A stretch of 34,376 nt of DNA, taken from the NCBI GenBank assembly GCA_902606745.1, contig CACLHR010000012.1:1-34376 (forward strand), written 5' to 3'. Shown in pieces: positions 15,298-32,008 of this stretch. Position 1 is the stretch's first letter, and the number at the start of each line of letters is the position of its first letter. Source of the DNA: an uncultured Gammaproteobacteria bacterium. GTDB taxonomy: Bacteria > Pseudomonadota > Gammaproteobacteria > PS1 > Pseudothioglobaceae. The notes under the pieces were generated by a model. The model saw only the letters and a program-made list of their open reading frames with translations. It was not told the origin of the DNA and ran no database searches. Both the position numbers and the translations under genes were made by a program.

Positions 15298-17241
15298 TTA
15301 TACTTTTATTAATAATAAACTGAACGAATGAGGAGGAACTTTAATATGATCTTTGCCACATTTTAATTTATTTTTTTTAATATAAACTTTTTCTAAATTT
15401 TTTTGATCATTCAAATCTGTTGGCGAATTACCATTGACTAAATAGTTCTCTATTATTTTTTTGTGAGTAGGTATTGAAATTATTAAACTTTCTGTTTCCG
15501 ATTTATTTACTATCGAAAGACATACCTGCTTTTGATCATAGGTTGCTGCAGCACTAATTAATTTATTTTCTTTATAAATTGGTTGTTTGCCAATTTTTGG
15601 GGATGAGAAAACGGGGCAATCTACAGATGTTTTTAGAATTTTCCCTTTGTGGTATTTAGTCAATAATTCTAAAATTAAAGTAGTTGGCGTTTTCCATATT
15701 TTTTGACCATCTATTCTATAGTTACCCATTACATTTATGAGATGGTATATTCCGGTATTTCTGATTATGTCTCCTCTATTAATGCAAGTATTTAATAAAG
15801 AGGCCGCATATAAAGCGTCTGCAATATTATAATTTTCAATAAAATTGGGATGTTCAGCCTCTACATAGGTATTCCACTCATCAAAAGCTATCGTAATATT
15901 TTTCTTTGTATTTTTTTTGATTTCTTTTATTGTTCTATCAAGCATTATTTCTACTTCTGTAGATGCAGCTACTGTAGGAATATATCTTGAAGTGTAATGA
16001 GGGTGGATCTTATCTTTTTCAGTTCTTATGGAGTAATAATGAATACTTAATTCATCAATTCTTTCTTTTATATTTTTCAATATTATTTCATTCCAGTGCC
16101 CAAAGTGATCTACACAGGCACCCACTGCAATGAACCTTAAGTCTTTATTAACTCTTTTAATTGCTTTTACAAACTTATCATATTTGAATGCGTAAGTTTT
16201 TGCATCTGTATGACCAATTTGCCAGCCTCCAAACATTTCATTGCCAATAAATATTGTTTTAAGGTTGTAAGGTTTGTCCCTTCCATTTTTTGATCTAAGT
16301 TTGCCATATTTGGTTTTAGTAGAACCTGTTAAATACTCGATCCAAGATGCTGCCTCTTCAGGAGTTCCATTGCCTGTATTTATTGTTATCATTGGTTCAC
16401 TTCCAATATATTCACACCATTGCATGAATTCGTCAGTTCCAACATCATTATTTTCCCATGTATACCAAGCAAAATCATAAAATGGTAGACGATAATTTTT
16501 ATCTCCAATTCCATTTATCCAATTGTAGCCAGATAAATAATTTCCACCAGGCCAACGAATATAACTTGGCAGCCATTCTTGGATAACTTTTGTAATGTCT
16601 TTTCTGAAGCCAAAGATTGTATTTTTTGGCATTAAGGAGCAATTGGCAATAAATATTTCGTCACTATTAATTGTTATTGATAAGGTTTTTTTCTTTTTTA
16701 AATCATTAAATTTTATATTTTTTTTAAATTCAAACCATTCCTTGCGACTTTTTATAACAAAATTTAATTCTCCGATTTGGATATAAACTTTTTGGCCAGC
16801 TCCCTTTAGCATTATGCTAAATTGATGCTCTTCATTAATAAAATTTACATTTATAGACTGCTTGATGCCTCTATTTTTTTCGCTTTTTTTTCTTATGGTA
16901 ATTTGTTGAGATTGTTTGCCACTTCCAAATCTATTTATTTGCTCCTCACCTTTGACGATATATTCGGAGTTTGAATGTGCATACATTACATGTTGTGATG
17001 ACGGGTTACATCCTTCCCAAGGCTTAATAATTCCAAAATCTAAATGATCATCATTCAATCCACTTTCCCAAATTAATTTATCTGGGCCACAAAATTTTCT
17101 ATTCTCAATTACTTCAGCCCAAACACCATTTTTATATATTGCTTCACCTATGTGCTCAAGATTAGCACCAAACATGTGAGGAGAAAGTTTGCCTATACTT
17201 TCATCAGCATTAAATAGAATTTTGTTTTTTTGCTTAATCAT
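15298..17241 (-). CDS. GH51 alpha-L-arabinofuranosidase-like glycoside hydrolase, cytoplasmic
   Basis: A 647-residue retaining glycoside hydrolase of family GH51 type. RWPGGNYLSGYNWINGIG (229-246) is the family hallmark. GNEM gives the acid/base E335 and DEWN (454-457) the nucleophile E455. A beta-sandwich follows from about 500. GH51 enzymes remove terminal L-arabinofuranosyl (or related) residues, and some have other specificities. There is no signal peptide, so the substrate must first enter the cell, fitting the importer encoded just upstream. Its start overlaps the ATPase stop by 8 bases, so the genes are translationally coupled; it is the last gene of the leftward operon. The real sugar may not be arabinose. 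Confidence 0.85.
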   Translation of the reverse strand: MIKQKNKILFNADESIGKLSPHMFGANLEHIGEAIYKNGVWAEVIENRKFCGPDKLIWESGLNDDHLDFGIIKPWEGCNPSSQHVMYAHSNSEYIVKGEEQINRFGSGKQSQQITIRKKSEKNRGIKQSINVNFINEEHQFSIMLKGAGQKVYIQIGELNFVIKSRKEWFEFKKNIKFNDLKKKKTLSITINSDEIFIANCSLMPKNTIFGFRKDITKVIQEWLPSYIRWPGGNYLSGYNWINGIGDKNYRLPFYDFAWYTWENNDVGTDEFMQWCEYIGSEPMITINTGNGTPEEAASWIEYLTGSTKTKYGKLRSKNGRDKPYNLKTIFIGNEMFGGWQIGHTDAKTYAFKYDKFVKAIKRVNKDLRFIAVGACVDHFGHWNEIILKNIKERIDELSIHYYSIRTEKDKIHPHYTSRYIPTVAASTEVEIMLDRTIKEIKKNTKKNITIAFDEWNTYVEAEHPNFIENYNIADALYAASLLNTCINRGDIIRNTGIYHLINVMGNYRIDGQKIWKTPTTLILELLTKYHKGKILKTSVDCPVFSSPKIGKQPIYKENKLISAAATYDQKQVCLSIVNKSETESLIISIPTHKKIIENYLVNGNSPTDLNDQKNLEKVYIKKNKLKCGKDHIKVPPHSFSLLLIKV

Positions 17242-18289
17242 TCATTCCCCATATTTTTTCTTCGGGCAAGTAGATAAACACTTCATCATTTTCAGAAATT
17301 TCTTTTTTCCCAACGGATTGTACAGAGCACTCTAGAACAGTATCCTTGATTTTAATTTTGTATCTCGTATTTGTTCCTGAAAAAATAATAGAAGTAACGA
17401 TTCCTGAAAAATAATTTTCTTTAAATATGTTAGTTTTTGATATTTCTATATTTTCAGGCCTTATTGTAAGTAAATGATTATCCAATAAGTCATTTTTATT
17501 TTTTTGATTGTAACTAATGGGTCCAATCTCTGTTTCAATATGCGAATTGCTCATTGTTGATTTAAGAAAGTTTACACCTCCAAAGAATCTTGCAACCCCT
17601 TCATTAATTGGGAATTCATAATATTCTTTTGGCGATGCGTAGCTTTGTAGCTTGCCATCAAAAATTAAAGCTATTTTATCTGCCAATAAAACTGCTTCTT
17701 CTTGATCGTGGGTTACAAAAACTGTTGTAACTTTTAATTTTTGCTGGATAGTTACGATTAGCTCTCTCATCTCATCTCTTAAATGGGCATCAAGATTACT
17801 CAACGGTTCATCTAATAATAAAAGGTTTGGTTTTGAAATTAAAGCCCGAGCTAATGCAACTCTTTGCTGTTGTCCGCCTGATAATTGTTTTGGTTTTCTA
17901 TTGCCAATATCTGGAAGCTTAACTAATTCCAACATGTCCTTAACTTTTTCATCAATTTTCTTTTTATCAACACCCTTCATTTTTAGTGCGAAGCCAACAT
18001 TTTCATTAACATTCATATAAGGAAATAACAAATAGTCTTGAAATACCATAACCACACCTCTGTTCTCCGTTGCAATGGGTAACAAGGATGTGTTGTCTAG
18101 AATGATATCTCCACTATCAGGCGGCAATAATCCTGTAATCATTTTCAATATTGTTGTTTTTCCACAACCAGATGGTCCTAAAAAAGCAATTAACCCTCCT
18201 GTTTTAATATCTAGACTTACATTATTAACCGCTGGTCTATCCATTCCAGGAAAGCTTTTGTTCAAATTTGAAATTTTTAAATCACTCAT
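17234..18289 (-). CDS. ABC transporter ATP-binding protein (PotA/UgpC type)
   Basis: A 351-residue importer ATPase. Walker A is GPSGCGKT (38-45), the Q loop FQDYLLFP is near 83-90, the signature LSGGQQQRVALARAL starts at 136, Walker B is LLLLDEP with D160-E161, and the H-loop histidine is H194. The C-terminal third (about 245-351) is the strand-rich TOBE-type domain of the MalK/PotA group. It lies in the order substrate-binding protein, permease, permease, ATPase, glycosidase, so it powers this importer rather than an orphan one. The spacing to the permease is 28 bases. Confidence 0.92.
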   Translation of the reverse strand: MSDLKISNLNKSFPGMDRPAVNNVSLDIKTGGLIAFLGPSGCGKTTILKMITGLLPPDSGDIILDNTSLLPIATENRGVVMVFQDYLLFPYMNVNENVGFALKMKGVDKKKIDEKVKDMLELVKLPDIGNRKPKQLSGGQQQRVALARALISKPNLLLLDEPLSNLDAHLRDEMRELIVTIQQKLKVTTVFVTHDQEEAVLLADKIALIFDGKLQSYASPKEYYEFPINEGVARFFGGVNFLKSTMSNSHIETEIGPISYNQKNKNDLLDNHLLTIRPENIEISKTNIFKENYFSGIVTSIIFSGTNTRYKIKIKDTVLECSVQSVGKKEISENDEVFIYLPEEKIWGMND

Positions 18290-18317: not shown

Positions 18318-19181
18318 TTAAATTTTCCCAAATCCAGATGTTGCGGCAGAATCTCCTGAGACAAATTTAGAGGTAAAGATTAAAATTAATATGGCTGGAA
18401 AAATAAACACTATTGATATTGCCGCTGTTAATGCTGGGTTTCCAGATGAAGCAGTTGAGAAAACAAGCAGTGGCAATGTCATAATCTTGCCTGCTCCAAT
18501 AAGGAAAGTTAATAAATACTGACTCCAAGATACTAAAAAGGCAAATAAAGCCGCCACTACCATCCCCGGTGCTATTGCAGGTAGTGTAATCAAATAAAAA
18601 GTTTCGAATTTATTGGCACCCAATGTTCTAGCTTGATGTTCAAAATCAGGATTATAATTAGCAAAAATTCCTGTCATTGTAAGAACCACGTAAGGCATTA
18701 TTGGAACTAAATGCACTAAACAAACCCCCAAAAAACTTCCTGAGAAACCCCATGAAATGAAATTAATGTTTAAACCTAGCACAAATGCAATTGGAGGCAA
18801 TATGGTAGGGGAAACCATTATAAAAATAATTATTTTTTTAAATCTGAAATTTAGTAAACCCAATACTCTGGCTGCAGGTAATGCAATTATAATTGAGGCA
18901 ATAGTAACTATTACACCAATAGTTACACTATTAACCAATGCTTTAATAATTGTGGGGTTTGATAGCCATAAGTCTAGAAATCCATCAAAAGATCTATAAC
19001 CTTCCCTTGGGATTAATTTAAGTCTTACCCATGCTTGTAAACTAAGTTCTTTAGGTATGAGTTGGGGGTAGAACCATCTAAACGAAAAAGCATTGATAAA
19101 AAAAGCAATTATGGGGAGAATCAACATAAACGCACCTAAATAAATGGCGTAAATATTTATTTTTTTTAAATTGTCATTCAT
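18318..19181 (-). CDS. ABC transporter permease, second subunit
   Basis: A 287-residue inner-membrane permease with six hydrophobic spans. The cytoplasmic coupling (EAA-type) loop is ARTLGANKFETFYLITLPAI. It belongs to the PotB/PotC or ThiP-like binding-protein-dependent permeases and pairs with the permease encoded 5 bases upstream to form the heterodimeric channel. The gene lies inside the leftward operon. A+T-rich codons match the rest of the block. Confidence 0.9.
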   Translation of the reverse strand: MNDNLKKINIYAIYLGAFMLILPIIAFFINAFSFRWFYPQLIPKELSLQAWVRLKLIPREGYRSFDGFLDLWLSNPTIIKALVNSVTIGVIVTIASIIIALPAARVLGLLNFRFKKIIIFIMVSPTILPPIAFVLGLNINFISWGFSGSFLGVCLVHLVPIMPYVVLTMTGIFANYNPDFEHQARTLGANKFETFYLITLPAIAPGMVVAALFAFLVSWSQYLLTFLIGAGKIMTLPLLVFSTASSGNPALTAAISIVFIFPAILILIFTSKFVSGDSAATSGFGKI

Positions 19182-19186
19182 TGAAA

Positions 19187-20062
19187 TTAATCTTTTCTAA
19201 TTTTGGTTTGAGTTAGCCAAAAATATATAACAACCAAAATCATAACTATCATTGCAATAATCATGCTAAGTGCCATCCCTTCGCTTCTTGCATTCAGATC
19301 AGGGTTTAGAAAAAATTCAAACGCCATTACTGGAAGCATTTGAGGATAATTAACACCAAGAATCGCTGGAACTTCGTATGATCCAAAACTAAAGGCGAAA
19401 ACAATTATTGAGGCAGAAAAAAGACTTGGCATTACCAGTGGAAGAATGACATATCTAAATCTTTGCCATTTATTAGCACCTAAACTTTGCGCTAATTCTT
19501 CAAAATTTTCGCCAAGAGACTGAAGAACAGACATCAATATAATAAAGAAAAAAGCGGACTCTTTCCAAATATAGGCTAATATTATTCCTGATCCATATCT
19601 ATCTTTTACCAAGACTGGAAATTCACTTGGCGATCCAATGAAGCCTATCTGAGTAAACATTCGAGCTAATAATCCACTTTGAGAAAAAACAAAAATCATT
19701 CCTACGGCCACAACCAAGTGTGGCATAGGTAAATTTAAGGAATAGATAAAATTGCAAAACTTTTTTGCAAAAAAAGTTTTTCTAATAGCTAAAGCTCCAA
19801 ACAAGGCAAATGCAGCTGCTATAAAAGTACTAACAAAACTAACCCATAAATTTAAAGCTAAGCCTGTCCAAAATAATTTCGCATACCTCTCTGAAAACAT
19901 AACGTTATAGTATGCATCAAAATTAATTTCATATTTTTGAATTGCTGGCTGATAGCCTAGACTTTGAAGAAATCCATATAGTATTCCTCCAAAGAATAAC
20001 GTGAAAATAATTAAAAGGGGCGGAGATAGTGAAAGTATAATTTTTAATCTATCTCCACCCAT
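19187..20062 (-). CDS. ABC transporter permease, first subunit
   Basis: A 291-residue permease with six spans and the coupling loop AQSLGANKWQRFRYVILPLV. The N-terminus (LKIILSLSPPLLIIFTLFFGG) is the first membrane helix. It follows the substrate-binding protein gene by 10 bases. Together with the second permease it matches the E. coli YnjC role, though YnjC is a fused, longer protein; here there are two separate subunits. Confidence 0.9.
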   Translation of the reverse strand: MGGDRLKIILSLSPPLLIIFTLFFGGILYGFLQSLGYQPAIQKYEINFDAYYNVMFSERYAKLFWTGLALNLWVSFVSTFIAAAFALFGALAIRKTFFAKKFCNFIYSLNLPMPHLVVAVGMIFVFSQSGLLARMFTQIGFIGSPSEFPVLVKDRYGSGIILAYIWKESAFFFIILMSVLQSLGENFEELAQSLGANKWQRFRYVILPLVMPSLFSASIIVFAFSFGSYEVPAILGVNYPQMLPVMAFEFFLNPDLNARSEGMALSMIIAMIVMILVVIYFWLTQTKIRKD

Positions 20063-20072: not shown

Positions 20073-21323
20073 CTATTTTAGAAGTACGTTTGCTTGCCAA
20101 TCAGCCTCAATTTTATCTTGATATTCTGCAGCAATATCAGAAACAAGAGCTCTCGCTAATATTCCTTGATCTTCTGCAGCATCACCAAGATTGTTTTGAG
20201 CGTCTTGGATAGCAGCAACTCCTTCAGCGCTAGTTACTTTCGCAGTGCTTATTCCCCAACCACAACAAAAACCATTAGCTGGCTGAACTTGAGCAGCTTG
20301 TAAAGTAGGTTCTAGAACAAGATTAGCATAAACTAATGCCGCTGCTTTATTAGGAGCATTGTATGGGATTGCCCAATAATTAAAATCTCCAATCATGTTG
20401 TCATAAAAAGCAAAAGCTCTAGTAGTAGGTGGCGTTGTTCCAGCAGAGTTTGTTGGTCCTGCACCTCTTGGAGATTGAGTAAAACTCATATCCACTTCAC
20501 CGTTTGCGAATAATGCATGCATGTCAGCATTATTAGTTGGATAGGTTTCACCACCTCTGTGTAAATCAGGTTCCCAAGAATTTAATAGTGCCCAAACTTT
20601 TGGAGCCCATTTGTTATACAATTCCTCATTGTATGGTCCAACCCATTGAGCATGACCACCACTTAATTCAAAGAAAATTTGCTTAACAAACCTTGTTCCA
20701 ACAAATCCACCTTTACCAGGTCTGATATATGTAAATCTACCTGGATTATCAGAAATCCACTTAGTCAGAAATCCATAATTTCTCGGCATATCATCGTAGT
20801 TACTTCTAGCTGAGTCATACATAAAATGGAATTGTGCACTGGACCAAGGGCTTTCCATGCCATCAACTGGTCTGCCAAAGTCTAAATTTACTGCTGGATT
20901 GTCCCATGCAACAAATTGACTATTTGGTAAGCTTTCACCAAATGGCCCATAAAGAAGATCTGCTTGTTTTAAAGTCCAGAAATTTTCACCATTGATCCAA
21001 ATCAAATCAATGTTTCCATTGTCTCCTGTAACGCCAGCTTCTTTTTCACTTAATACCTGGTTAACAGCATCAACAGTTCCTTTTAAAGGCATTCTGTTCA
21101 AAGTAATGTTGTAATCATTTTTTAATGGCACTCCATAGAAGTCATCTACGAAACCATTGATCGCATCAGAACCGCCCCACATATAAACATTTACTTGTCC
21201 GCCATCTGCAGCAGCTGTAACGTCATCCCAAGAATCAAATCCTGGGGCAACTCCAGCTGAAGCTAATTTTGAAAAAAATAAACTAACTATAGCGAGGGTT
21301 ATTAATTTAAATTTAATATTCAT
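20073..21323 (-). CDS. YnjB-like periplasmic substrate-binding protein
   Basis: A 416-residue solute-binding protein. The signal peptide (residues 1-23) ends ASA|G. Mature-protein stretches VNVYMWGGSDAINGF (about 44-58), IDLIWINGENFWTLKQADLL and NLDFGRPVDGMESPW match what I recall of the YnjB family. Its E. coli member belongs to an uncharacterised YnjBCD importer. The fold is that of the iron/polyamine/thiamine group rather than the classical sugar-binding group. The GH51, isomerase and kinase genes around it nonetheless point to a carbohydrate or a charged carbohydrate derivative. AGGAGA precedes the ATG. Confidence 0.85.
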   Translation of the reverse strand: MNIKFKLITLAIVSLFFSKLASAGVAPGFDSWDDVTAAADGGQVNVYMWGGSDAINGFVDDFYGVPLKNDYNITLNRMPLKGTVDAVNQVLSEKEAGVTGDNGNIDLIWINGENFWTLKQADLLYGPFGESLPNSQFVAWDNPAVNLDFGRPVDGMESPWSSAQFHFMYDSARSNYDDMPRNYGFLTKWISDNPGRFTYIRPGKGGFVGTRFVKQIFFELSGGHAQWVGPYNEELYNKWAPKVWALLNSWEPDLHRGGETYPTNNADMHALFANGEVDMSFTQSPRGAGPTNSAGTTPPTTRAFAFYDNMIGDFNYWAIPYNAPNKAAALVYANLVLEPTLQAAQVQPANGFCCGWGISTAKVTSAEGVAAIQDAQNNLGDAAEDQGILARALVSDIAAEYQDKIEADWQANVLLK

Positions 21324-21373: not shown

Positions 21374-22804
21374 TTAGTGTTCCATTGGCGATAGATAATC
21401 CACCAACGGAATTTCTTCTATGAGCTTTAAATTGTTCCAAGCTGCAAATTCTATTAATTCTTTACTGTAATCACCTTGACCAACTGCATAATGATGTTCA
21501 TGACCTACAATATTCAACGTATTTACTAAATTTTCTGAAGAAATTTTTTTTCGATTTAAATGGATATTTCTAAACCATCCTCTGGTTCCATCAAAACCTT
21601 TATTTGTGTGTTCAAATATACTTGAATTCAATACTAATATTCTTTCACCATTGTTACTTATATATGTTGTTGTGGTTTCTTGTGGAGCAAAAACTTGATC
21701 ACCAGCAACGCCATATTTTTTTTCAGTTTTTCTTCCAAGGGTAGTATGATCAACCCATTTAATACCATCCTCATTTGCAAAATGTCTCGGCGATACTCCG
21801 CAATGCCACATTTGTACAGCATCTGCTTTTTTATCAAACGTCGCTAAGTCTAATAATGTGGATGATTTTTCAGCGTTTGAGATGTAGTTCAAAAGAAGCA
21901 TACTCATTGATCCTTGAACATCCCCTTCGCAAGATACTGCTACACCATCCTCACTTCCCATCCAACTATAAGCCATGCAAGGCGCTATTCCATATAAATT
22001 TTGAAATTGAGACCAGCATTGAACTGCTAAAGAATCCCAATTATTGTCTTCCTTCATTTTTTTTAAAGCAAAATAAACGCGCGTTACCTTATTGAATGAA
22101 TCTTCATTGGAAACTGAAATACTCGAAGCCGCACTTTTGATTTTTTGAATTTCACTATCAATAGTCTTTTGATCAAAACCTTTTGCAATGTGAACTAAGT
22201 CTTTGATTGTTGATTCTTCAATTGTTATACCTAGATTCTTTTTAATTTTTGATTGGTCAACCTCCATATTATCAAAGCCTGGAGATATTCCTCCTACCAG
22301 TCCTATTTTGGTATGTTGCATTTTCTTGAGGGCAACTAATGATCTGATTGTTATGGAAAATTTACTTTTAAACTCTTCAGTATCTGCGTAGTTATAAAAC
22401 CATTTAGTTGTAATTTTTTTATCAGATAAAACTTTTTTTATCATTGCTAAGAAATGACTTGTAGAGACTAAAGAGTGCAACTTAACATCCCCCTCTGTCT
22501 CAATATCAGGAACTGCCCATATGCCCATTTTGTCTGTTATATTACATAGCGGATATAACTGCTCACCTGCACTGCAAGAGCTTGTTTGAAGAAGCAAAAA
22601 ATCTATCTTGTTTTTAAAAAACTTTTCGGCTTCTATTGAATCTTCTTTAGAAAATATAGTTTTGTGAAATGGAATAAAATTTACATCAAAATTGTCTAAT
22701 AATTTTTTTAAATCAGTTTCGGACTTTTCTCTAACTTTATATTCATTAGAATAATAAGGAGGAATAGCTGTAGCAACGTACCCAATATTTAATTTAACGG
22801 CCAT
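21374..22804 (-). CDS. L-fucose/L-arabinose isomerase-like protein
   Basis: A 476-residue member of the FucI/AraA-like sugar isomerase superfamily. Residues from about 260 read AVQCWSQFQNLYGIAPCMA, then VAVSCEGDVQGSMSMLLLNY; the E/D pair in CEGDVQG is positioned as manganese ligands. HCGVSP and GHEHHYAVGQGD near the C-terminus add the histidine ligand and active-site loop. Family members convert aldoses to ketoses. The protein is shorter than FucI (about 590) and closer to the COG2407 group, whose substrates are mostly unassigned. It is the first gene of the leftward operon and faces the E1 genes across a 93-base promoter region. Confidence 0.75.
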   Translation of the reverse strand: MAVKLNIGYVATAIPPYYSNEYKVREKSETDLKKLLDNFDVNFIPFHKTIFSKEDSIEAEKFFKNKIDFLLLQTSSCSAGEQLYPLCNITDKMGIWAVPDIETEGDVKLHSLVSTSHFLAMIKKVLSDKKITTKWFYNYADTEEFKSKFSITIRSLVALKKMQHTKIGLVGGISPGFDNMEVDQSKIKKNLGITIEESTIKDLVHIAKGFDQKTIDSEIQKIKSAASSISVSNEDSFNKVTRVYFALKKMKEDNNWDSLAVQCWSQFQNLYGIAPCMAYSWMGSEDGVAVSCEGDVQGSMSMLLLNYISNAEKSSTLLDLATFDKKADAVQMWHCGVSPRHFANEDGIKWVDHTTLGRKTEKKYGVAGDQVFAPQETTTTYISNNGERILVLNSSIFEHTNKGFDGTRGWFRNIHLNRKKISSENLVNTLNIVGHEHHYAVGQGDYSKELIEFAAWNNLKLIEEIPLVDYLSPMEH

Positions 22805-23878: not shown

Positions 23879-24891
23879 GAGAATTAACAGTAAAGGAAGC
23901 AATTAACGAAGCTCTATTTGAGTCATTCGAAAATGATGAAAATGTAATTTTGATGGGTGAGGATATAGCGGGCGGAAAAGGTAGGGAAAATTATCCAGGA
24001 ACTCAAGATAGTTGGGGAGGACCATTTGGAGTGACTCAAGGATTGCTCACAAAATTTGGTCCCGAAAGAGTCAGAGACACAACAATTACAGAGGCTGGCT
24101 TTTTTGGTGCAGCGGTAGGAGCTGCTATGACCGGATTGAGGCCCATAGTAGAATTAATGTATGTTGATTTTGCAGGAGTTTGCTTTGACCAACTGATGAA
24201 TCAAGCCGCCAAAATGAGATATATGTTTGGTGGAAAACAAAGCGTTCCCATGGTTGTAAGAACCGTTGTGGGAGCTGGTTTCAGGGCTGGCAGTGAACAT
24301 TCCCAAACACTCTACAGTTTGTATGCACATATACCTGGACTTAAGGTCGTCGCTCCATATGACGCATTTGATGCAAAAGGTTTATTGTTATCGGCAATTA
24401 AGGATGATGATCCTGTAATATTCATGGAGCATAAAAGATTGTATATGACCAAATGTGATGTTCCGGAGGATATGAAAGCAATACCTTTAGGCAAAGGAAG
24501 AATAAGACGCCCCGGTAAAGACGTTACTATAATAGCAATACAAAGAATGAATCTTTTTGCTGAAGAGGCCGCACAAAAAATATCAGAGGAAAATATAGAT
24601 TGCGAAATTATCGACCCTAGAACTTATTCGCCACTAGATGAGGAATTAATTTTTGAATCAGTTAGAAAAACTGGAAGAGTTATTGTAATCGATGAATCAA
24701 ATCCTAAATGTTCTTTGGCATCAGAAATTACCTCTTTAATTTCTGAAAAATGTTTTAATGATTTAAAAACTGCAGTTATTAAAATCACCGCACCCCACAC
24801 TCCTATTCCATTTAGTCCTCCCATGGAAGATTTTTATATACCCTCCACAAAAAAAATAATTGAAGCTATAAAAAAAGTTCACAATGCTTAA
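23875..24891 (+). CDS. TPP-dependent 2-oxoacid dehydrogenase E1, beta subunit
   Basis: A 338-residue E1 beta with the expected landmarks: an opening TVKEAINEALFESFENDENVIL cut by the family's GEDIA (28-32), then TITEAGFFGAAVGAAMTGLRP (part shown), an active-site H in SEHSQT near 141, and the C-terminal transketolase-type domain from about 210 (VTIIAIQ...IDPRTYSPLD). Coupled to the alpha gene by an ATGA overlap, the two form an alpha2beta2 enzyme. After it come 127 bases without a gene, then the nucleoside-hydrolase gene, so a separate promoter for the following genes is possible. Confidence 0.88.
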   Translation: MRELTVKEAINEALFESFENDENVILMGEDIAGGKGRENYPGTQDSWGGPFGVTQGLLTKFGPERVRDTTITEAGFFGAAVGAAMTGLRPIVELMYVDFAGVCFDQLMNQAAKMRYMFGGKQSVPMVVRTVVGAGFRAGSEHSQTLYSLYAHIPGLKVVAPYDAFDAKGLLLSAIKDDDPVIFMEHKRLYMTKCDVPEDMKAIPLGKGRIRRPGKDVTIIAIQRMNLFAEEAAQKISEENIDCEIIDPRTYSPLDEELIFESVRKTGRVIVIDESNPKCSLASEITSLISEKCFNDLKTAVIKITAPHTPIPFSPPMEDFYIPSTKKIIEAIKKVHNA

Positions 24892-25018
24892 TAAGGCAGC
24901 AACTAATTATCAAAATGTCGATTCGCAGATTCGAGATTTTATATAATCATACGAATGAATTGATACTGGTAGATAAAGATATCAATTTTTAAAATTAAAT
25001 TAGATAAAGAAATAGCCA

Positions 25019-26128
25019 ATGACCGTACCTATAGAAATTTTGAATAAATTCCCTAAATTATCTAATGAAAAAATATTACTTAATTTATCTAATCCTTTCG
25101 GCAAAAATAAACTTATACTCGATACCGATACTGCAAACGAAATTGATGATCAATTTGCTTTGGCGTGGACTTTGTTGTCCGGGGATAAAATTAATTTATT
25201 GGGAGTAACTGCTGAACCATACTCTTTCCAACATCACAAGGAAGAACTTTTAGAGGCTTTTAATATAATAAAAGAAAATAAAGAAATTTCTAAAGACAAT
25301 ATTAATTTAGTTAATAATTATAGCGATTGGGTAAATGGATTAATTGAATCGAACATACATCCTAACGACATATATTTTGATACACCTAAAGAAGGTGTGG
25401 AAAAAAGCTATCTAGAAATAATAAAAGTATTTGATAAATTAAAAATTCCTCATGAAGGAAAAGCTTTTAGAGGATCGGATCAATATTTATCTAGTTTTGA
25501 TAATCCTTTAATTACTGAATCTAGTGAATTTATTGTTAAATCATGTCTTCAATATCCTGATGAAAAAATTTATGTCTGTGCGATTGGATGCCTAACAAAC
25601 ATAGCCTCAGCTTTATTGATGGAACCAAAAATAATTAATAATTTAATCGTAGTATGGACATCTGGTTTTCCCACGTATAGCATAAATAATAATAGTCATT
25701 CATTCAACTTAGTTCAGGACGTATTATCTTCTCAATTGCTTTTTGAATGCGGGGTTGCAAACGTATATCTTCCTGGTTACAACGTAGGTGCACAATTAAC
25801 TTTATCTCTTCCCGACATGAAAGAATTTGTTAAAGGAAGAGGAGATATTGGGAATTATCTTTATGAATTATATACAAATAATCCTCTTCATAAGCAAAGG
25901 GGAGTAATTGATCAAACTTGGAGAACATGGGTCATCTGGGATGTAATAACTATTGCTTGGATGATTGATGCTTCGTGGGTTCCTTCACATATTGTTTCAT
26001 CACCTGTTTTAAATGATGAACTGTACTGGAAACGAAATAATGAATCGCACCCTATGAGAGAAGCATACGGGGTTAATAGAGATGCAATATTTCATGATTT
26101 TTTCACAAAAATTGATAAACTAAAATGA
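25019..26128 (+). CDS. Variant nucleoside hydrolase-family protein
   Basis: A 369-residue member of the IUNH nucleoside hydrolase superfamily. The calcium site near the N-terminus reads LILDTDTANEIDDQFAL (D35, D37, D43, D44), where classical enzymes have DTDPGxDD. SFNLVQD (228-234) gives N230 and D234, matching the second half of the site. EKSYLEI (about 128-134) and FRGSDQYL are features of a subgroup I associate with sugar gene clusters. Classical members release ribose from nucleosides; this subgroup may cleave another N- or O-glycoside. It starts the tight part of the rightward operon and overlaps the next gene by 4 bases. Confidence 0.75.
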   Translation: MTVPIEILNKFPKLSNEKILLNLSNPFGKNKLILDTDTANEIDDQFALAWTLLSGDKINLLGVTAEPYSFQHHKEELLEAFNIIKENKEISKDNINLVNNYSDWVNGLIESNIHPNDIYFDTPKEGVEKSYLEIIKVFDKLKIPHEGKAFRGSDQYLSSFDNPLITESSEFIVKSCLQYPDEKIYVCAIGCLTNIASALLMEPKIINNLIVVWTSGFPTYSINNNSHSFNLVQDVLSSQLLFECGVANVYLPGYNVGAQLTLSLPDMKEFVKGRGDIGNYLYELYTNNPLHKQRGVIDQTWRTWVIWDVITIAWMIDASWVPSHIVSSPVLNDELYWKRNNESHPMREAYGVNRDAIFHDFFTKIDKLK

Positions 26129-26970
26129 TTTTAGGTGTACATTCCGCCACTTTTGTTAAAAATTGGCAAGAAGATATAACCCCCTATATACACAAGTGTA
26201 AAGAGGCTGGATTTAAATCTGTAGAGATTTCTCTTTTAGGTCAAACTCCTGAAAGTGCAAAAGAAATTTCAAATTTAGCTAGTGATTTAAATATTTCTCT
26301 AACTTGTACAACAGGTCTATCTAAAGAAGAAGATATAAGCAGTAATGATCCGAACATACGAAAAAATGGGGAGGAGGCACTCAAAAGAGCAATTAATATG
26401 ACTTCAATTATGAACTCTCATTTGCTGACCGGAGTTGTTCATTCGGCTTGGGGTATTAGCAATACTTTGGGTAAGGACAAGGAAGATAAATTTAAAAATT
26501 CATCTACCTCTATTAAGAAAATTTCAAATTTGTTAACAGAGCAAAATATCAAATTAGGGATAGAGCCACTCAACAGATATGAAACAGATTTTATTAATAC
26601 AGTGGATGAAGGATTAAAATTATGTGAGTTAATTGATCATCCAAATGTAGGTTTGCTTTTAGATGTTTACCACATGAATATTGAAGAAAAAAATATTTGC
26701 CAATCAATTGAAAAGGCTAAAGATAAATTATTCCATTTACAAGTTGCAGAAAATGATCGGGGCATACCAGGCACCGGCTCTATTAATTGGTTAGAAATTT
26801 TTAATACTTTAAAAAAAATAAACTATAACCAAAATGTTTCTCTTGAAATGTTTATTCAAGCAAATGTAGATACAAGCAAAGATTTGTTTACTTGGAGAAA
26901 TATAGAAAATGACCCATACGATGCTATTGTAAGATCTTTTATTTTTTTAAATGAGCATTTGAATGCATAG
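26125..26970 (+). CDS. TIM-barrel sugar epimerase/isomerase (ketose 3-epimerase or Hyi/OtnI-like)
   Basis: A 281-residue xylose-isomerase-like TIM barrel. By position the residues match ketose 3-epimerases: E147 (GIEPLNRYE), D180 and H183 (LDVYHMN), R212 (ENDRGIPGTG) and E241 (SLEMF). The third metal position, histidine in D-tagatose 3-epimerase, is Q206 here (FHLQVAEN). The H-x-Q form occurs in hydroxypyruvate and 2-oxo-tetronate isomerases (Hyi/OtnI), so either activity is open. It overlaps the genes on both sides (4 and 8 bases), showing tight co-translation with the nucleoside hydrolase and DhaL genes. Confidence 0.8.
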   Translation: MILGVHSATFVKNWQEDITPYIHKCKEAGFKSVEISLLGQTPESAKEISNLASDLNISLTCTTGLSKEEDISSNDPNIRKNGEEALKRAINMTSIMNSHLLTGVVHSAWGISNTLGKDKEDKFKNSSTSIKKISNLLTEQNIKLGIEPLNRYETDFINTVDEGLKLCELIDHPNVGLLLDVYHMNIEEKNICQSIEKAKDKLFHLQVAENDRGIPGTGSINWLEIFNTLKKINYNQNVSLEMFIQANVDTSKDLFTWRNIENDPYDAIVRSFIFLNEHLNA

Positions 26971-27562
26971 CGCTTATAAAAAATGGATTTTAAATTCATA
27001 CGATAAAATAAATTCTGATTATGTTGAATTGGATAAATTAGATCAACTTGTTGGAGATGGCGATCATGGATCCACTATCTATAAAGGTATTACAGTCGCA
27101 AAACAATTATATTTAAACAAATTAACTTCACCACTTGATGAGACGATGGCAATTATTTCAAAGCAAATGCGGATTGAAATGGGTGGGGCGTCAGGAATTT
27201 TAATGTCTATATTTTTTGATGAATCTGGAAAAATAGATAAATCAAATTTGAATTCATCAATAATTGATATTTTTGAAAAATCGATAGATAAAATAATGAA
27301 GATAGGAAAGGTAAAGGCTGGTGATAAAAGTATTCTTGATATTTATATCCCTGTTTTAAATTTTTTAAAAAAAAATTCTGATTTTCAATTTAAAAAAAAT
27401 GAAATCAACGAAATTCTATCTCTTTCCTTAGCCAAAACAAAAGAAATGGAAGCTCAGGTTGGAAGAGCTAAATTTTTAGAAAATAGAGGTCTTGGGTTCA
27501 TCGATCCAGGAGCTAAGTCTACTGAAATTATACTCAGAGAGTACTTCGAATCACTGCTATGA
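26963..27562 (+). CDS. dhaL: Dihydroxyacetone kinase-type subunit DhaL (ATP-binding)
   Basis: A 199-residue DhaL domain. VGDGDHGSTI (30-39) carries the magnesium/nucleotide aspartates D32 and D34, with D27 just ahead; GGASGILMS (about 74-82) is the second family motif, and GRAKFLENRGLGFIDPGA is the lid-side ending. DhaL binds the nucleotide and phosphorylates the ketose held by DhaK, encoded next (4-base overlap). In E. coli DhaL holds ADP and is recharged by DhaM of the PTS. No DhaM is found here, so free ATP may be the donor. The order L then K is the reverse of E. coli. Confidence 0.9.
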   Translation: MHSAYKKWILNSYDKINSDYVELDKLDQLVGDGDHGSTIYKGITVAKQLYLNKLTSPLDETMAIISKQMRIEMGGASGILMSIFFDESGKIDKSNLNSSIIDIFEKSIDKIMKIGKVKAGDKSILDIYIPVLNFLKKNSDFQFKKNEINEILSLSLAKTKEMEAQVGRAKFLENRGLGFIDPGAKSTEIILREYFESLL

Positions 27563-28557
27563 AAAAAATTATAAATAATAAAGATCAGATAGTTGATGAT
27601 ATGTTGAGTGGATATATTAAGGCTAATAGTGATAGAGTAAAATTTTCCAATAACAGTAAAAGAATTATTTTAAGAAGTCACCCAAAAAATATTGAGAAAA
27701 CTGCCATTTTAATTGGCAATGGCTCAGGTCACGAACCTATTGCTATGGGTTGGGTCGGCGAAGGACTATTAGATGCAAATGTCGTTGGAGATATATTTGC
27801 TGCACCATCTGGAGATCTAATCTTTGAAGGTATAGAAATATTTAAAGAGAATTCTGGATGTATTCTTTTAATATCTAATCATGCAGGCGATGTTATGAAC
27901 GGAGAGATGGCAATTGAATTAGCAAAAGAACATAATATTGATGCCGATTTATTATTAATGTACGACGATATTGCTTCTGCCCCTAGGGGAAGCGAAGATC
28001 AAAGAAGGGGAGGCGCAGGCACTACTTTTATTTATAAGATTTTAGGAGCGCTCTCTGAAATGGGAGAAAAAAAAGAGACCTTATTAAGCTTAGGTAAATT
28101 TGTGAGAGATCAAACAAGAACATTATCTATTGCAGTAGCTTCAGGAGTCTCACCAATATCGGGAAAAAAAATATTTCACTTAGATGATGATGAAGTTTTT
28201 ATTGGAATGGGCGTTCATGGAGAATCAGGTTATGGAAGACAAAAAATTTCTTCGTCAAAAAAAATAATAAAATTGATGATGGATAAAATATTTGATGACT
28301 ATCAGTACAAAGAGGGCGATATAGTCATACCTTTTATTAATGGTTCTGGCGCTACTACGTTAATGGAATTATTGATTATATATAATGATGTAGAAGAGTA
28401 TCTTGCTCAATATAAAATTAAAATTTATAAACCGTTAATAAATGAATATATCACAACGCAAGAAAGTGCGGGATTTTCAATATCTTTATTAAACTCAAAT
28501 GAGCAAATGAGAAATCTATGGATCTCTCCAAGTTCAGCACCATATTTTCACCTGTAA
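27559..28557 (+). CDS. dhaK: Dihydroxyacetone kinase-type subunit DhaK (ketose-binding)
   Basis: A 332-residue DhaK subunit, normal in length. GNGSGHEP (53-60, H58), NHAGD (107-111, D111) and GMGVHGESG with H220 correspond to the E. coli residues H56, D109 and H230; the last binds the substrate carbonyl covalently. Relatives phosphorylate dihydroxyacetone or D-/L-erythrulose. In this sugar cluster a tetrulose or a modified triulose is a fair guess. Its stop overlaps the aldehyde dehydrogenase start as TAATG. The residue set indicates an active enzyme. Confidence 0.9.
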   Translation: MKKIINNKDQIVDDMLSGYIKANSDRVKFSNNSKRIILRSHPKNIEKTAILIGNGSGHEPIAMGWVGEGLLDANVVGDIFAAPSGDLIFEGIEIFKENSGCILLISNHAGDVMNGEMAIELAKEHNIDADLLLMYDDIASAPRGSEDQRRGGAGTTFIYKILGALSEMGEKKETLLSLGKFVRDQTRTLSIAVASGVSPISGKKIFHLDDDEVFIGMGVHGESGYGRQKISSSKKIIKLMMDKIFDDYQYKEGDIVIPFINGSGATTLMELLIIYNDVEEYLAQYKIKIYKPLINEYITTQESAGFSISLLNSNEQMRNLWISPSSAPYFHL

Positions 28558-29987
28558 TGAACATGTATACAAAACTTGGATTATTTATTGGTGGAAAATG
28601 GATTTATGAAGCTGAGAAGGGTGAAAATGTTTTAAATCCTGCGGATGAGAGTATTTTAGGGTGGCTGCCTCATGCAACTAAAGGTAATTTAAATGATGCC
28701 CTTAAATCCTCCGAGATAGGCTTTGATGAGTGGAAAAATACTAATCCCAATAAAAGAAGCAGGATAATTTTAAAAGCTGCAGATATTTTATCTGAAAGAA
28801 TTTCTGCAATATCTAAAGTGATGACCCTTGAGCAAGGCAAACCCCTTGCTGAATCTGTTGGGGAAATAAACCAATCGATTGCTATTTTAAAATTCAATGG
28901 AACTAATGCAAAATTAATTAAGGATGAGCTGGTAGCTGATAGAGATAATGGATTAAAAACTTTGATTCAACCTCATCCACTTGGAATTTGTTTGTGTCTC
29001 ACAGCGTGGAATTTTCCTATTGCTTTAGTTGTTCGAAAAATTGCCCCAGCCCTAGCTGCTGGTTGCTCAGTAATTATTAAGCCTTCTGAAGAAACACCAG
29101 GCACAGCTATAGAGGTTGTTAAAATATTTCAGGAAGCAGGTTTACCCAAAGATGTTATTAATTTGGTATTCGGTGTTCCTCATGAAATTTCTGATTATCT
29201 GCTGAGCAGAGATGAAGTTAAGAAATTAAGCTTTACAGGATCAGTTCCTGTAGGGAAACTTTTAGCAAAGAAATCGGCAGAAACATTAAAAAGATGCACT
29301 CTTGAGTTAGGAGGGCACTCACCAGCAATTATTGCAGAAGATGCTGACATTGAAAAAACCTTAGATGTTTTAACTGGTTTTAAGTTTAGAAATGCTGGTC
29401 AGGTTTGCATTGCACCAAGTAGATTTTATGTTCATGAAAAGATATACGATAAAGTACGGGATGGATTTTTAAGTAGATTAAAAAACATTTTATTAGGTAA
29501 TGGGATGAGTGAAGGCATAACAATGGGTCCTCTAGCCAACTTCCGTAGAATTGAAGCAATGCAAGACTTTGTAGATGATGCAGTTAAAAATGGCTCAAAT
29601 ATCATTCATGGAGGAAATAGACATAAGAATATTGGTTATTTTTGGGAGCCAACTATTATTGAAAATATTAACGAAGGTTCAAAAATTATGAATCAAGAAA
29701 TTTTCGGTCCTATACTTCCATTATTTAAATTCGATGATTATGACGATGTTATAGACAAGGCTAATTCTTTAAATTATGGACTTGCTTCGTATGTTTATAC
29801 AACTAGTGAGACTTTACAAAAAAAAATGGCTAAAGAAATTATCGCAGGTGGGGTTTCTATAAATACTGCCACTCCTCTACATCCTGATATTCCTTATGGA
29901 GGAATTAAAGAAAGTGGAATTGGTTATGAGGGGGGAATGGATGCAATATATTCATTCATTCATAAAAAAAACATCAACATTATTTAA
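28557..29987 (+). CDS. NAD(P)-dependent aldehyde dehydrogenase
   Basis: A 476-residue aldehyde dehydrogenase starting at the ATG of TAATG, overlapping the dhaK stop by one base; an ATG 39 bases earlier is possible but less likely. The cofactor segment WNFPIALVVRKIAPALAAGC is followed by KPSEETP, the general base is in LELGGHSP and the nucleophile cysteine in NAGQVCIAPSR. The layout is closest to GabD/AldA-type enzymes that oxidise small hydroxy- or acid-bearing aldehydes. With the reductase next door, the cell could push the same aldehyde either to acid or to alcohol. A sulfolactaldehyde-type substrate is possible but unproven. Confidence 0.88.
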   Translation: MNMYTKLGLFIGGKWIYEAEKGENVLNPADESILGWLPHATKGNLNDALKSSEIGFDEWKNTNPNKRSRIILKAADILSERISAISKVMTLEQGKPLAESVGEINQSIAILKFNGTNAKLIKDELVADRDNGLKTLIQPHPLGICLCLTAWNFPIALVVRKIAPALAAGCSVIIKPSEETPGTAIEVVKIFQEAGLPKDVINLVFGVPHEISDYLLSRDEVKKLSFTGSVPVGKLLAKKSAETLKRCTLELGGHSPAIIAEDADIEKTLDVLTGFKFRNAGQVCIAPSRFYVHEKIYDKVRDGFLSRLKNILLGNGMSEGITMGPLANFRRIEAMQDFVDDAVKNGSNIIHGGNRHKNIGYFWEPTIIENINEGSKIMNQEIFGPILPLFKFDDYDDVIDKANSLNYGLASYVYTTSETLQKKMAKEIIAGGVSINTATPLHPDIPYGGIKESGIGYEGGMDAIYSFIHKKNINII

Positions 29988-30003
29988 TTAATAGAGAGGA
30001 AAT

Positions 30004-30891
30004 ATGAAAAATATAGGTTTTATCGGTGTTGGAACAATGGGTTTCCCTATGGCTTTAAATTTAATTAAAAATGGCCACTCTCTTTCTTTTTATGATCCTT
30101 TTGCTAATAACAAAACTATAGAAGTTTTAATTGAAGCGGGAGCTAAACAAGAAAAAACTATTGCAGACTTATGTAAGACTAAAGATTTTCTTATATCTAT
30201 GCTGCCTATTGGAGAAGATGTAAAAGAAGTAGCGCTTGGAGAGGGCGGTATTATTAATCAAGATAACACGGATCTAATTTATATTGATATGAGCACAATA
30301 TTACCGGCAGATAGCATTGATGTTAGCAAGCAATTACAAACAAAAAATATTCAAATGTTTGATGCTCCTGTAGCACGCCTAGTTAATGAAGCAATTGAAG
30401 GCACTTTACTCATTATGGTTGGAGGATCGTTGCAAGATTTTCCTAAAATTGAAGAGATTTTAAAATGTATGGGAAGCGATGTTGTTTATTGCGGCACTAT
30501 AGGTTCAGGAAGTAAAATGAAGATCATTAATAATTACATGTCAATTGTTTCAAACATTGTTACTGCTGAAACACTTTCCTTAGTTCATAAATCAGGAATA
30601 GATCAAAAGCTAGCCATAGAATTAATGTCAACGACAGCCGCTGGAAAAGGCCATATGAATTTTAGTTATCCTAAAAAGGTTTTGATAAATGATATAGGTC
30701 CTGGTTTTAAAAATGTTTTAGCTTTGAAGGATTTGCGCTTAGCTATTGAACATGCAGAATCGGAGGGAATTGAATTAACTTCAGGAAAAAGTGTATTAAA
30801 TATCTATGAAAGGGCAATGGATACTAAATATAAAGACTTGGATTGGACTGCTATGTTTAATTTTGTAAAGGAAAGTAATAATCTTGATTAA
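30004..30891 (+). CDS. Beta-hydroxyacid dehydrogenase family reductase, YihU (sulfolactaldehyde reductase)-like
   Basis: A 295-residue NAD(P)H-linked reductase with the fold of 3-hydroxyisobutyrate dehydrogenase. The Rossmann motif GFIGVGTMGFPMALNL starts at residue 5; the catalytic lysine is K173 in KMKIINNYMS. As I remember YihU, its sulfonate-binding residues are R123, N174 and S178. The equivalents R125 (APVARLVNEA), N176 and S180 are all kept at a constant offset of two, as is TAAGKGH. Usual 3-hydroxyisobutyrate enzymes have DAPVSGG in place of the arginine segment. AGAGGA lies just ahead of the ATG. Substrates could be sulfolactaldehyde, succinic semialdehyde or another acidic aldehyde. 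Confidence 0.82.
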   Translation: MKNIGFIGVGTMGFPMALNLIKNGHSLSFYDPFANNKTIEVLIEAGAKQEKTIADLCKTKDFLISMLPIGEDVKEVALGEGGIINQDNTDLIYIDMSTILPADSIDVSKQLQTKNIQMFDAPVARLVNEAIEGTLLIMVGGSLQDFPKIEEILKCMGSDVVYCGTIGSGSKMKIINNYMSIVSNIVTAETLSLVHKSGIDQKLAIELMSTTAAGKGHMNFSYPKKVLINDIGPGFKNVLALKDLRLAIEHAESEGIELTSGKSVLNIYERAMDTKYKDLDWTAMFNFVKESNNLD

Positions 30892-32008
30892 AATAAAATC
30901 TTTAAGATCTTATTATTTAGAATTTCCATTAATTGATCCTGTCATAACTTCTTTTGGTGTTATGAAGACTAGACCTTGCATAATAATTGAACTCGAGGAT
31001 TTTAATAAGAATATAGGTTATGGAGAAATTTGGTGTAATTTTCCGAGTGATGCCGCTTCTTATAGATTTAATCTACTCAACAGTCTTTATCTTAACAACA
31101 TCATAGGTTGTGAATTTTCAAATCCAGAAAAATTAATTGATAAAATTGCCGATACATTTAAAACTCTTTTTGTTCAATCAGGTGATATAGGTTCGTTTGA
31201 TAACATTAATGCCGGTCTTGACTGCGCTTTCTGGGACTTGTTTGCTAAGACTAAAAAAATACCCCTTAACAAATTATTAAATACTGAATCGCAAAAACAT
31301 ATTTCCGTTTATGCCAGCGGAATTAACCCAAGTGAATCTTATGAGAAAATTACAATTGCGAGATCTATGGGCATAAAGGCTTTTAAGGTAAAAATAGGTT
31401 TCAATCACTCATTGGACATAGATCTATTAAATGTTCTAACCGATTATTTTTCTAATGAAGAAATGTTGATGCTGGATGTAAATCAAGGTTGGAATATTGA
31501 TGAGGCTTCTAAATATTTAAAAATATTAGAAAATTATAATTTCTCTTGGATAGAAGAACCTATTTCTGCACTATCAAATAAAGATGAATTTAATAATATA
31601 ATTAATTCAACAAACTGCAATTTAGCATTTGGAGAAAATATTAATAATTTAGATGATTTTATTTTTCTAGGTCAGAATAAAAAATTAAAGTATATTCAAC
31701 CTGATCTCACTAAATTTGGAGGAATTTCTTTAATAAATAATTTATCAAAAAAAATTCAAAGCAATAAAATATGGATGCATTTTTTAGGCAGTGGGGTGGG
31801 CTTGCTAACTTCAGCTCACATTATGTCAGCCATCAATCCCTCTGCTTTTTTAGAAACTGATATCAATGTTAATCCTCTTAGAACAAATCTATTTAAGAAT
31901 GAATTAAAGATTGAAGACGGAAAAATAAATTTTAGTGATGATCATGGAATAGGAGGTCCTTTAAATTTTGATACAATTAATAAATATCTGATTTCTTCAA
32001 ATATTTAA
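30884..32008 (+). CDS. Enolase-superfamily enzyme (mandelate racemase/muconate-lactonising type)
   Basis: A 374-residue two-domain member. The N-terminal capping domain takes about 1-130 and the barrel follows. Catalytic K168-x-K170 lies in FKVKIGF; metal ligands are D198 (MLDVNQGW), E224 (WIEEPI) and E251 (FGENI). K277 in DLTKFGG and the histidine of MHFLGSG complete the site. The family includes sugar-acid dehydratases, epimerases and cycloisomerases; dehydration of an aldonate fits the context, but the exact activity is open. The start is TTG, overlapping the reductase gene by 8 bases, with AAGGAAAG upstream. It ends the rightward operon. Confidence 0.85.
   Translation: MIKIKSLRSYYLEFPLIDPVITSFGVMKTRPCIIIELEDFNKNIGYGEIWCNFPSDAASYRFNLLNSLYLNNIIGCEFSNPEKLIDKIADTFKTLFVQSGDIGSFDNINAGLDCAFWDLFAKTKKIPLNKLLNTESQKHISVYASGINPSESYEKITIARSMGIKAFKVKIGFNHSLDIDLLNVLTDYFSNEEMLMLDVNQGWNIDEASKYLKILENYNFSWIEEPISALSNKDEFNNIINSTNCNLAFGENINNLDDFIFLGQNKKLKYIQPDLTKFGGISLINNLSKKIQSNKIWMHFLGSGVGLLTSAHIMSAINPSAFLETDINVNPLRTNLFKNELKIEDGKINFSDDHGIGGPLNFDTINKYLISSNI

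Follow-up and report, generated by a model that had tools for sequence, protein, structure and literature searches.

We report on a catabolic gene block in the window, that is, the whole stretch of 34,376 nucleotides analysed here (contig CACLHR010000012.1, C12 in our numbering, of assembly GCA_902606745.1, from an uncultured gammaproteobacterium of the family Pseudothioglobaceae). Fifteen genes, all of them open reading frames, occupy positions 15298-32008 in two divergent operons (Table 1), and profile searches together with the open frames bear out every gene family that an earlier, sequence-only reading of this DNA had named. Together with their relatives in other genomes, these genes seem, with somewhat better than even probability, to constitute a patchy catabolic island that would import a furanosyl glycoside with a sugar altered beyond C4 and break it down by a route yielding dihydroxyacetone phosphate (DHAP). 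The evidence comes from the recurrence of the genes, from residues kept or lost in the encoded proteins, and from the aldolase and regulator genes of a close relative.

Recurrence and distribution of the island

A profile built from five aligned nucleoside-hydrolase-family proteins of the island, when searched against 84,980 species genomes, recovered at least 557 relatives, and the best 80 loci were mapped automatically with a custom open reading frame (ORF) caller and similarity clustering. Six families were counted as the core: isomerase, binding protein, DhaK, DhaL, epimerase and aldolase. Among these best 80 of at least 557 loci, three or more of the six core partners are present at 46, four or more at 45 and all six at 23; fewer than three are found at 34 and none at 18. 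These counts are possibly too low in GC-rich loci because the ORF caller or the clustering misplaces some genes there. The genes thus recur together, in line with the co-occurrence check named in the sequence-only reading, and the block is a real conserved unit, beyond chance. Gene order is shuffled between lineages, which indicates association beyond the common descent of a single block.

The 46 core-positive loci include ones from alphaproteobacterial single cells, SAR116, roseobacters, Rhizobiaceae, Devosia, Chloroflexi including Anaerolineae, and Trueperaceae, with single bins labelled Gammaproteobacteria and Euryarchaeota; three annotated roseobacter plasmids carry the cluster. The distribution is patchy and the island rare: at E ≤ 1e-60 the only genome with the hydrolase is the window's own in its class (369 genomes sampled) and the carrier itself in the class of an alphaproteobacterial carrier (385 sampled), and an isomerase orthologue is present in 3 of 29 genomes of the genus. 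Between the genus and the alphaproteobacterial carriers, the binding proteins are 85-86% identical and the E1 beta proteins 84-86%, compared with 61% for ClpP (one gene, one pair). This far greater likeness of the island proteins points to acquisition by horizontal transfer. If the proposed pathway is right, the island would represent a repeatedly assembled, so far unnamed catabolic module of mostly marine or algae- or sponge-associated bacteria.

Loss of the aldolase and the regulator

The genus mate G028, whose genome is a single contig and 99% complete, has the same two operons, at 76-94% identity to the window, with two extra genes: one encodes a LacD-type aldolase and lies between DhaK and the aldehyde dehydrogenase (ALDH), the other encodes a GntR regulator and separates E1 beta from the hydrolase. 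The LacD-like protein (315 aa) scores 231 bits with PRK12858 (cutoff 184; all scores with curated Pfam, NCBIfam and PRK models are in bits, against the model's own cutoff). By-eye comparison with G028 shows that the 127-bp gap after E1 beta in the window retains the 5' and 3' parts of the GntR gene. Another genus mate with these operons, G014, has the same relict and, as in the window (genome G000), the DhaK stop is joined almost directly to the ALDH start (by eye); both deletion junctions sit inside contigs in G000 and G014, though these genomes are incomplete (about 80%). Judged from this comparison, the absence of aldolase and regulator from the window is a secondary, local loss. The earlier statement that the block has neither is therefore true of the window but fails as a trait of the pathway, which, as found elsewhere, does include a retro-aldol enzyme. 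The lesson is that absence in a single genome should not be read as pathway design.

With the aldolase step lost, the route in the window species would be either rerouted, perhaps through cleavage of the ketose by E1 alpha/beta, or decaying. That the operon of this species is a decaying remnant no longer supporting growth appears rather unlikely, and would be compatible with the proposed pathway, which covers the island generally. The regulator relict and aldolase deletion in both G000 and G014, the failure to find LacD elsewhere in either genome and the split hydrolase gene in the G014 assembly argue for decay; however, the 15 remaining window frames are open and, over the aligned parts, 92.9-100% identical to G014. 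Moreover, the alphaproteobacterial loci L041 and L043 are also devoid of LacD yet retain the other partners seen there, which suggests a workable aldolase-free form. The pieces of the split gene (L029:9465-11791, G014:C7) lie about 1.1 kb apart and are partly repeated, through an insertion or an assembly fault. That another aldolase might substitute in the window genome was considered and set aside, as searches found no LacD homologue in G000 or G014 and no PF01116 member in G000, G014 or G028; a PF00596 protein may be a replacement in G000. Proteins of this family are present in all six genomes searched, and one G000 member adjoins genes for a mandelate-racemase (MR)-type enolase and a dioxygenase-like protein.

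Enzymes of the predicted pathway

The best NCBIfam model for the isomerase is SftI, at 150 bits well under the equivalog cutoff of 700, and its residues E293, D319, H353 and H437 are invariant in 13 sequences. In the two dihydroxyacetone (DHA) kinase subunits, the DGDHG, GGASG and GDK motifs of DhaL are conserved, as are the functional residues H58, D111 and H220 of DhaK; no DhaM or phosphotransferase system gene was found among the genes of the block. All 45 aligned LacD-family proteins from the loci keep both the GR pair and the Lys, and 44 keep the S-A-G motif, presumably for Schiff base formation and 1-phosphate binding. The Arg of the DQR motif, present in LacD and in a putative sulfo-Embden-Meyerhof-Parnas (sulfo-EMP) aldolase of the genus, is lost in 35 of the 45.

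From these families we infer the following sequence of reactions. The YnjB-type ATP-binding cassette (ABC) importer would take up the glycoside, from which the nucleoside-hydrolase-family enzyme would free the sugar, with the glycoside hydrolase family 51 (GH51) or a nucleoside-phosphorylase-family enzyme as an auxiliary. The isomerase of the AraA/FucI superfamily would then generate a ketose, the epimerase would invert C3, and DhaK-DhaL would phosphorylate C1, probably with ATP. Cleavage by the LacD-type aldolase would release DHAP and a short aldehyde, to be either reduced by the YihU-like enzyme or oxidised by ALDH. Lineage-specific tails, never found together, would be supplied by E1 alpha/beta or by a thiolase-like protein with DUF35, often accompanied by a coenzyme A (CoA) ligase or CoA-transferase. 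If this scheme is right, phosphorylation of a ketose at C1 by a DhaK-DhaL pair would be a kinase role that we did not find described.

Nature of the substrate

The GH51 protein, encoded at 17 of the 46 core-positive loci, contains in its translation the N-E and D-E-W-N motifs, which we assume to be those of the two catalytic acids, and matches the Pfam catalytic and C-terminal domains above cutoff. In the hydrolase, D37, D43, D44, N230 and D308 are kept in 65 of 65 sequences and D35 in 64 (one X), presumably as the Ca/diol site of inosine-uridine (IU) nucleoside hydrolases (DxD...DD and the equivalents of Asn168 and Asp242). At the position aligned to Glu166 of the solved classical enzymes, 63 of the 65 have Ser and the other 2 have Ala. 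We take Glu166 to be the 5'-OH ligand of the classical enzymes, a role for which a literature search found no support. The lack of this ligand, along with the lack of the LacD Arg in most aldolases, suggests a sugar modified beyond C4, and the hydrolase residues taken together with the GH51 and nucleoside-phosphorylase families favour a furanosyl sugar altered in this way as the substrate. With two glycosidase families in the block and a nucleoside-phosphorylase-family protein encoded at 10 of the 46 loci, the gene content is consistent with the furanoside or N-glycoside suggested earlier. If the prediction holds, the hydrolase would have a specificity for C5-altered sugars, of which we found no description.

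The binding protein, for which an AlphaFold2 model has a mean predicted local distance difference test (pLDDT) score of 86.9, belongs with E. coli YnjB, which matches 45 of the 53 residues invariant among 14 cluster binding proteins. Neither Lys nor Arg occurs among these 53 positions, nor at 90% or higher conservation among 49 binding proteins, so that an anionic ligand is not favoured.

The nucleoside-hydrolase, nucleoside-phosphorylase and GH51 families, the AraA-like isomerase and the lack of the Arg in most aldolases would also suit a salvage route for ordinary pentoses, derived from nucleosides or arabinofuranosides, via a ketose-1-phosphate cleaved to DHAP and glycolaldehyde. We consider this quite improbable, given that the 5'-OH ligand is missing from the hydrolase and that the anion pocket of the YihU-like enzyme would be left unexplained; furthermore, ribokinase or xylulokinase routes would presumably make such a kit superfluous.

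Reductase, dehydrogenase and the two endings

Among 19 homologues of the YihU-like reductase, R123, K171, N174 and N175 are kept in 17, including the window protein and two from Trueperaceae but not those of L048 and L101, and S178 is kept in 16, again including the window protein. We regard R123, K171, N174 and S178 as the sulfonate-binding or catalytic residues of YihU. The window protein scores under the cutoff of the sulfolactaldehyde (SLA) reductase model (280 against 348 bits).

These residues, and SftI as the closest NCBIfam model for the isomerase, would fit a sulfosugar pathway, in effect sulfo-EMP with DhaKL as its kinase, in which the short aldehyde would be sulfolactaldehyde or sulfoacetaldehyde; moreover, the YihU homologue DhpA oxidises 2,3-dihydroxypropane-1-sulfonate (DHPS) in Desulfovibrio, ahead of an SLA dehydrogenase (PMC9594981). 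The evidence is conflicting, however: YihU-like residues are kept in the reductase, whereas conserved basic residues are missing from the binding proteins, and 35 aldolases are without the Arg that the probable sulfo-EMP aldolase of the genus keeps. In addition, another cluster of the genus, which includes PfkB and Gfo/Idh genes, has an isomerase closer to SftI (302 bits), and no sulfonate-cleaving or sulfoquinovosidase family was found among the selected neighbours scanned. On balance we judge a sulfosugar pathway unlikely, and on the same evidence plain sulfoquinovose was not retained as first choice. Our guess would be that the YihU-like pocket could be reconciled with a binding protein lacking basic residues if the aglycone, and not the sugar, carried a sulfonate, given the DHPS-oxidising YihU homologue known from elsewhere (PMC9594981).

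E1 alpha/beta is encoded at 16 of the 46 core-positive loci and the thiolase-like/DUF35 pair (either member) at 15, both at none; an AMP ligase is encoded at 6 and a CoA-transferase III at 8. The thiolase-like protein is unlikely to be a thiolase because the catalytic Cys is absent from all 21 rows covering it and the His from all 23, so that attack through Cys was ruled out. As for E1 alpha/beta, a housekeeping pyruvate dehydrogenase is an unlikely identity, inasmuch as the island-free genus members G006 and G017 give only long or weak matches that are SucA- or Dxs-like by length; another E1 alpha is encoded at a different place in the G000 genome. A betaine-aldehyde-like aldehyde, considered on the betaine-aldehyde dehydrogenase score of the relatives' ALDH, was dropped, the best solved matches being Bacillus ALDHs followed by many general ALDHs. 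The oxidation or reduction and dehydration steps of the sequence-only reading remain plausible, and with two alternative endings to compare, what becomes of the short aldehyde can be tested directly.

Outside the 46 core-positive loci, L048 has a lactate-racemase-like protein, and genes resembling ketol-acid reductoisomerase (KARI) lie in or beside the island at L076:12187-13179 (Acidimicrobiia bin; from Pfam) and L071:3757-4755 (Trueperaceae bin; from clustering); such guests are typical of hydroxy-acid chemistry.

A possible link to arsenosugars

A more specific version of a sugar altered beyond C4 would be the algal 5-deoxy-5-dimethylarsinoyl-ribofuranosides. After import, the altered nucleoside hydrolase, isomerisation, DhaKL phosphorylation and cleavage would convert these to DHAP and dimethylarsinoyl-acetaldehyde, and the latter to dimethylarsinoyl-ethanol or dimethylarsinoyl-acetate, the acetate being cleaved further and the arsenical exported. 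This would explain the losses of the 5'-OH ligand and of the Arg. One arsenosugar carries a DHPS aglycone, which would explain the YihU-like enzyme. The idea was recorded after a match to ArsK, weak (75-102 bits, cutoff 400), had been found for the major facilitator superfamily (MFS) gene of three roseobacter clusters, and before the ars genes of L089 were recognised. In L089 (441-7226), the AMP ligase, enolase and hydrolase genes are divergent from arsD (98 bits, cutoff 90) and arsA (745, cutoff 650), with an ArsR-type gene beside them just under its cutoff (54.7 against 55).

Nevertheless, we regard arsenosugar catabolism as a long shot, because the ars genes are one neighbour on one short metagenomic contig that shows no isomerase or kinase. 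ArsA/ArsD were found at only 1 of 85 loci, L089, a weak negative from a crude motif scan that did not pick up even L089's own ArsR-type gene. Moreover, the ArsK match falls far short of its cutoff and the MFS genes of other lineages are of other types, the thiolase-like proteins are without the Cys needed for a thiolase-like C-As cleavage, and natural concentrations are low. The transporter neighbouring the alphaproteobacterial islands (cluster c26) was examined as an arsenite carrier and rejected, as it scores BASS/PanS-like rather than Acr3. Were arsenosugars the substrate after all, the island would be the missing enzymology of their breakdown, with carbon gained and arsenic leaving in a simple methylated form.

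Weighing the proposed pathway

Several observations weigh against the DHAP-yielding breakdown of a furanosyl sugar altered beyond C4. No member of the island has, to our knowledge, been studied biochemically, and the specificities of the isomerase and epimerase are not readable from sequence. Many of the 34 loci with fewer than three core genes are on short contigs; still, of the 46 of the 80 loci with at least 20 kb of sequence, 32 have three or more core genes and 14 have fewer. Nine Chloroflexi aldolases, encoded opposite to the hydrolase, keep the DQR Arg, and one further aldolase is truncated at this position. The YihU-like anion pocket has no place in the breakdown of a sugar without an anion, nor do E1 alpha/beta, the enolase, the thiolase-like protein and the CoA enzymes have one in the proposed steps. 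Finally, the aldolase gene being lost, the route is incomplete in the window's own species, and LacD homologues were found nowhere in G000 and G014, genomes only about 80% complete, or in the alphaproteobacterial genome G110 by a search that gave matches in G028, G006, G003, G017 and G111.

Gene layout and flanking genes

Within each operon, genes overlap or are separated by at most 50 bp, the gap between E1 beta and the hydrolase being the sole exception. The mechanical ORF of ALDH begins at 28518, and comparison with G028 suggests the start listed in Table 1. A promoter scan of the divergent intergenic region found nothing. The host genome is 1.36 Mb in size and 82.5% complete; genomes of the family are mostly 0.7-1.8 Mb, with one of 2.8 Mb.

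Table 1. Genes and gene remnants of the island in the window, with model matches
Feature	Position	Strand	Match or basis
GH51-like cytoplasmic furanosidase (putative)	15298..17241	-	Pfam Alpha-L-AF_C 63 bits, ASD1_dom 41 bits
ABC importer ATPase	17234..18289	-	ABC_tran, TOBE_2
ABC importer permease 2	18318..19181	-	BPD_transp_1
ABC importer permease 1	19187..20062	-	BPD_transp_1
YnjB-subfamily solute-binding protein	20073..21323	-	PRK11622 361 bits, cutoff 203
Aldose-ketose isomerase, L-fucose/L-arabinose isomerase (AraA/FucI) superfamily	21374..22804	-	SftI 150 bits; AraA_central 22.5 bits, cutoff 24
Thiamine pyrophosphate (TPP)-dependent E1 alpha	22892..23878	+	E1_dh 216 bits
TPP-dependent E1 beta	23875..24891	+	Transket_pyr, Transketolase_C
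GntR-family regulator relict	24892..25018	+	matches both ends of G028 GntR gene
Nucleoside-hydrolase-family variant, putative N- or O-furanosidase	25019..26128	+	IU_nuc_hydro 66 bits
Ketose 3-epimerase-like TIM barrel	26125..26970	+	AP_endonuc_2 130 bits; D-psicose 3-epimerase 236 bits, cutoff 300
DhaL, nucleotide-binding subunit of proposed ketose kinase	26963..27562	+	Dak2 106 bits; DhaL 128 bits, cutoff 138
DhaK, substrate-binding subunit of proposed ketose kinase	27559..28557	+	Dak1 304 bits
Junction left by deletion of LacD-type aldolase gene	28558..28562	+	G028 carries 315-aa LacD-like gene here
Aldehyde dehydrogenase (ALDH)	28563..29987	+	Aldedh 489 bits
YihU-like 2-hydroxyaldehyde reductase	30004..30891	+	SLA reductase model 280 bits, cutoff 348
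MR-type enolase-superfamily enzyme (dehydratase or racemase)	30884..32008	+	MR_MLE_C 117 bits

The flanks (window 6428-10104 and 13476-15182) encode two PhyH-type dioxygenases, a glucose-methanol-choline (GMC) oxidoreductase, a PALP enzyme and an alpha/beta hydrolase; a gene resembling another PhyH-type dioxygenase (cluster c28; by eye) adjoins seven alphaproteobacterial islands. GlpK lies at the contig end (window 32923-34158), and its start is missing, as the model match begins only at position 84-88; it adjoins the island in G000 and G014 but a sulfo-EMP-like cluster in G006. Genes for a macro-domain protein and an HNH_2 endonuclease are located near the contig start (window 2800-5127).

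Comparison with known systems

E. coli YnjBCD, for which we know of no ligand, has a binding protein much like that of the island, but in the E. coli K-12 annotation ynjBCD has none of the catabolic partners next to it. In an Anaerolineales bin (L082:15778-18496), a YnjB-type island has DedA-type (VTT) and CDP-alcohol transferase genes in its vicinity, which parallel the ydjX/ydjZ and ynjF genes flanking ynjBCD in E. coli. The steroid retro-aldolase Ltp2-ChsH2 is built like the thiolase-like/DUF35 pair of the relatives, in which a thiolase-like protein without the Cys and His is also paired with DUF35; the pair is absent from the window. The match of the thiolase-like protein to 6ok1, a 'lipid-transfer protein', is distant (E 7e-32, rank 14).

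Sulfo-EMP pathways (YihS/YihV/YihT/YihU) proceed by isomerisation, phosphorylation of the ketose at C1, cleavage by a LacD/YihT-type aldolase, and a YihU-like reductase or ALDH (PMC12890257). Candidates for the isomerase, ketose kinase, aldolase and reductase/dehydrogenase roles are all present in G028 and many relatives, but with a kinase of another family, and the window is without the aldolase. The island differs in having DhaKL in place of the PfkB kinase, an isomerase outside the YihS family, only GH51 and nucleoside-hydrolase families instead of a sulfoquinovosidase (GH31 or GH188), binding proteins without a conserved basic residue and, in most cases, aldolases without the DQR Arg, residues that would presumably contact a sulfonate. 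Some sulfo-EMP clusters likewise are devoid of a GH31 gene (PMC10755693). The sulfofucose pathway uses a galactonate-dehydratase-type enolase and otherwise, as far as the available text describes it, enzymes different from those of the island (PMC12421959), and the accessible part of a 2026 paper on marine sulfoquinovose degraders references known sulfoquinovose pathways without mention of a dihydroxyacetone kinase (PMC13372026).

The second cluster of the genus, at L026 (G000:C3:84000-98539) and L027 (G006:C1:988000-1007000), combines the SftI-like isomerase (302 bits in G006) and PfkB kinase with a Gfo/Idh oxidoreductase (GH188-like?), a 2-hydroxyacid dehydrogenase and a MalEFGK-type ABC transporter, and is a probable sulfo-EMP system for sulfoquinovosides. 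Its LacD-type aldolase is present in G006 and found neither in the G000 stretch read nor elsewhere in G000.

The L-fucose and L-rhamnose pathways employ an isomerase, a kinase and a ketose-1-phosphate aldolase yielding DHAP and an aldehyde, which is then reduced or oxidised (PMC10986504). The island would share these roles, with the addition of furanosidases, an epimerase and an acid-processing tail. The kinases and aldolases of the L-fucose and L-rhamnose pathways belong to other families.

A further parallel in logic is with the DHAP shunt (Pfs/MtnP, MtnK, MtnA, Ald2), in which a nucleosidase, kinase, isomerase and aldolase convert 5'-deoxynucleosides to DHAP and a substrate-dependent aldehyde (PMC10986504). 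Conversion of a C5-modified riboside to DHAP and an aldehyde would be compatible with the gene set of the island as well. However, isomerisation of the free sugar would here precede the kinase, and DhaK-DhaL would replace MtnK; the AraA/FucI isomerase, the LacD-type aldolase (G028) and the hydrolase are from families other than MtnA, class II Ald2 and Pfs/MtnP, and the island adds a dedicated importer and a 3-epimerase.

A pathway with this set of components was not found among titles and abstract starts of the open-access literature in PubMed Central (PMC), subscription papers being outside the search, which agrees with the sequence-only reading in this respect. Queries there for arsenosugar gene clusters, for DHA kinase with hydrolase or sulfoquinovose, and for DhaK with ketose-1-phosphate or sulfofructose likewise returned no matching pathway. 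Thus, the comparisons portray the island as a probable DHAP-yielding system of sugar breakdown that combines a known logic with an unfamiliar set of enzymes.

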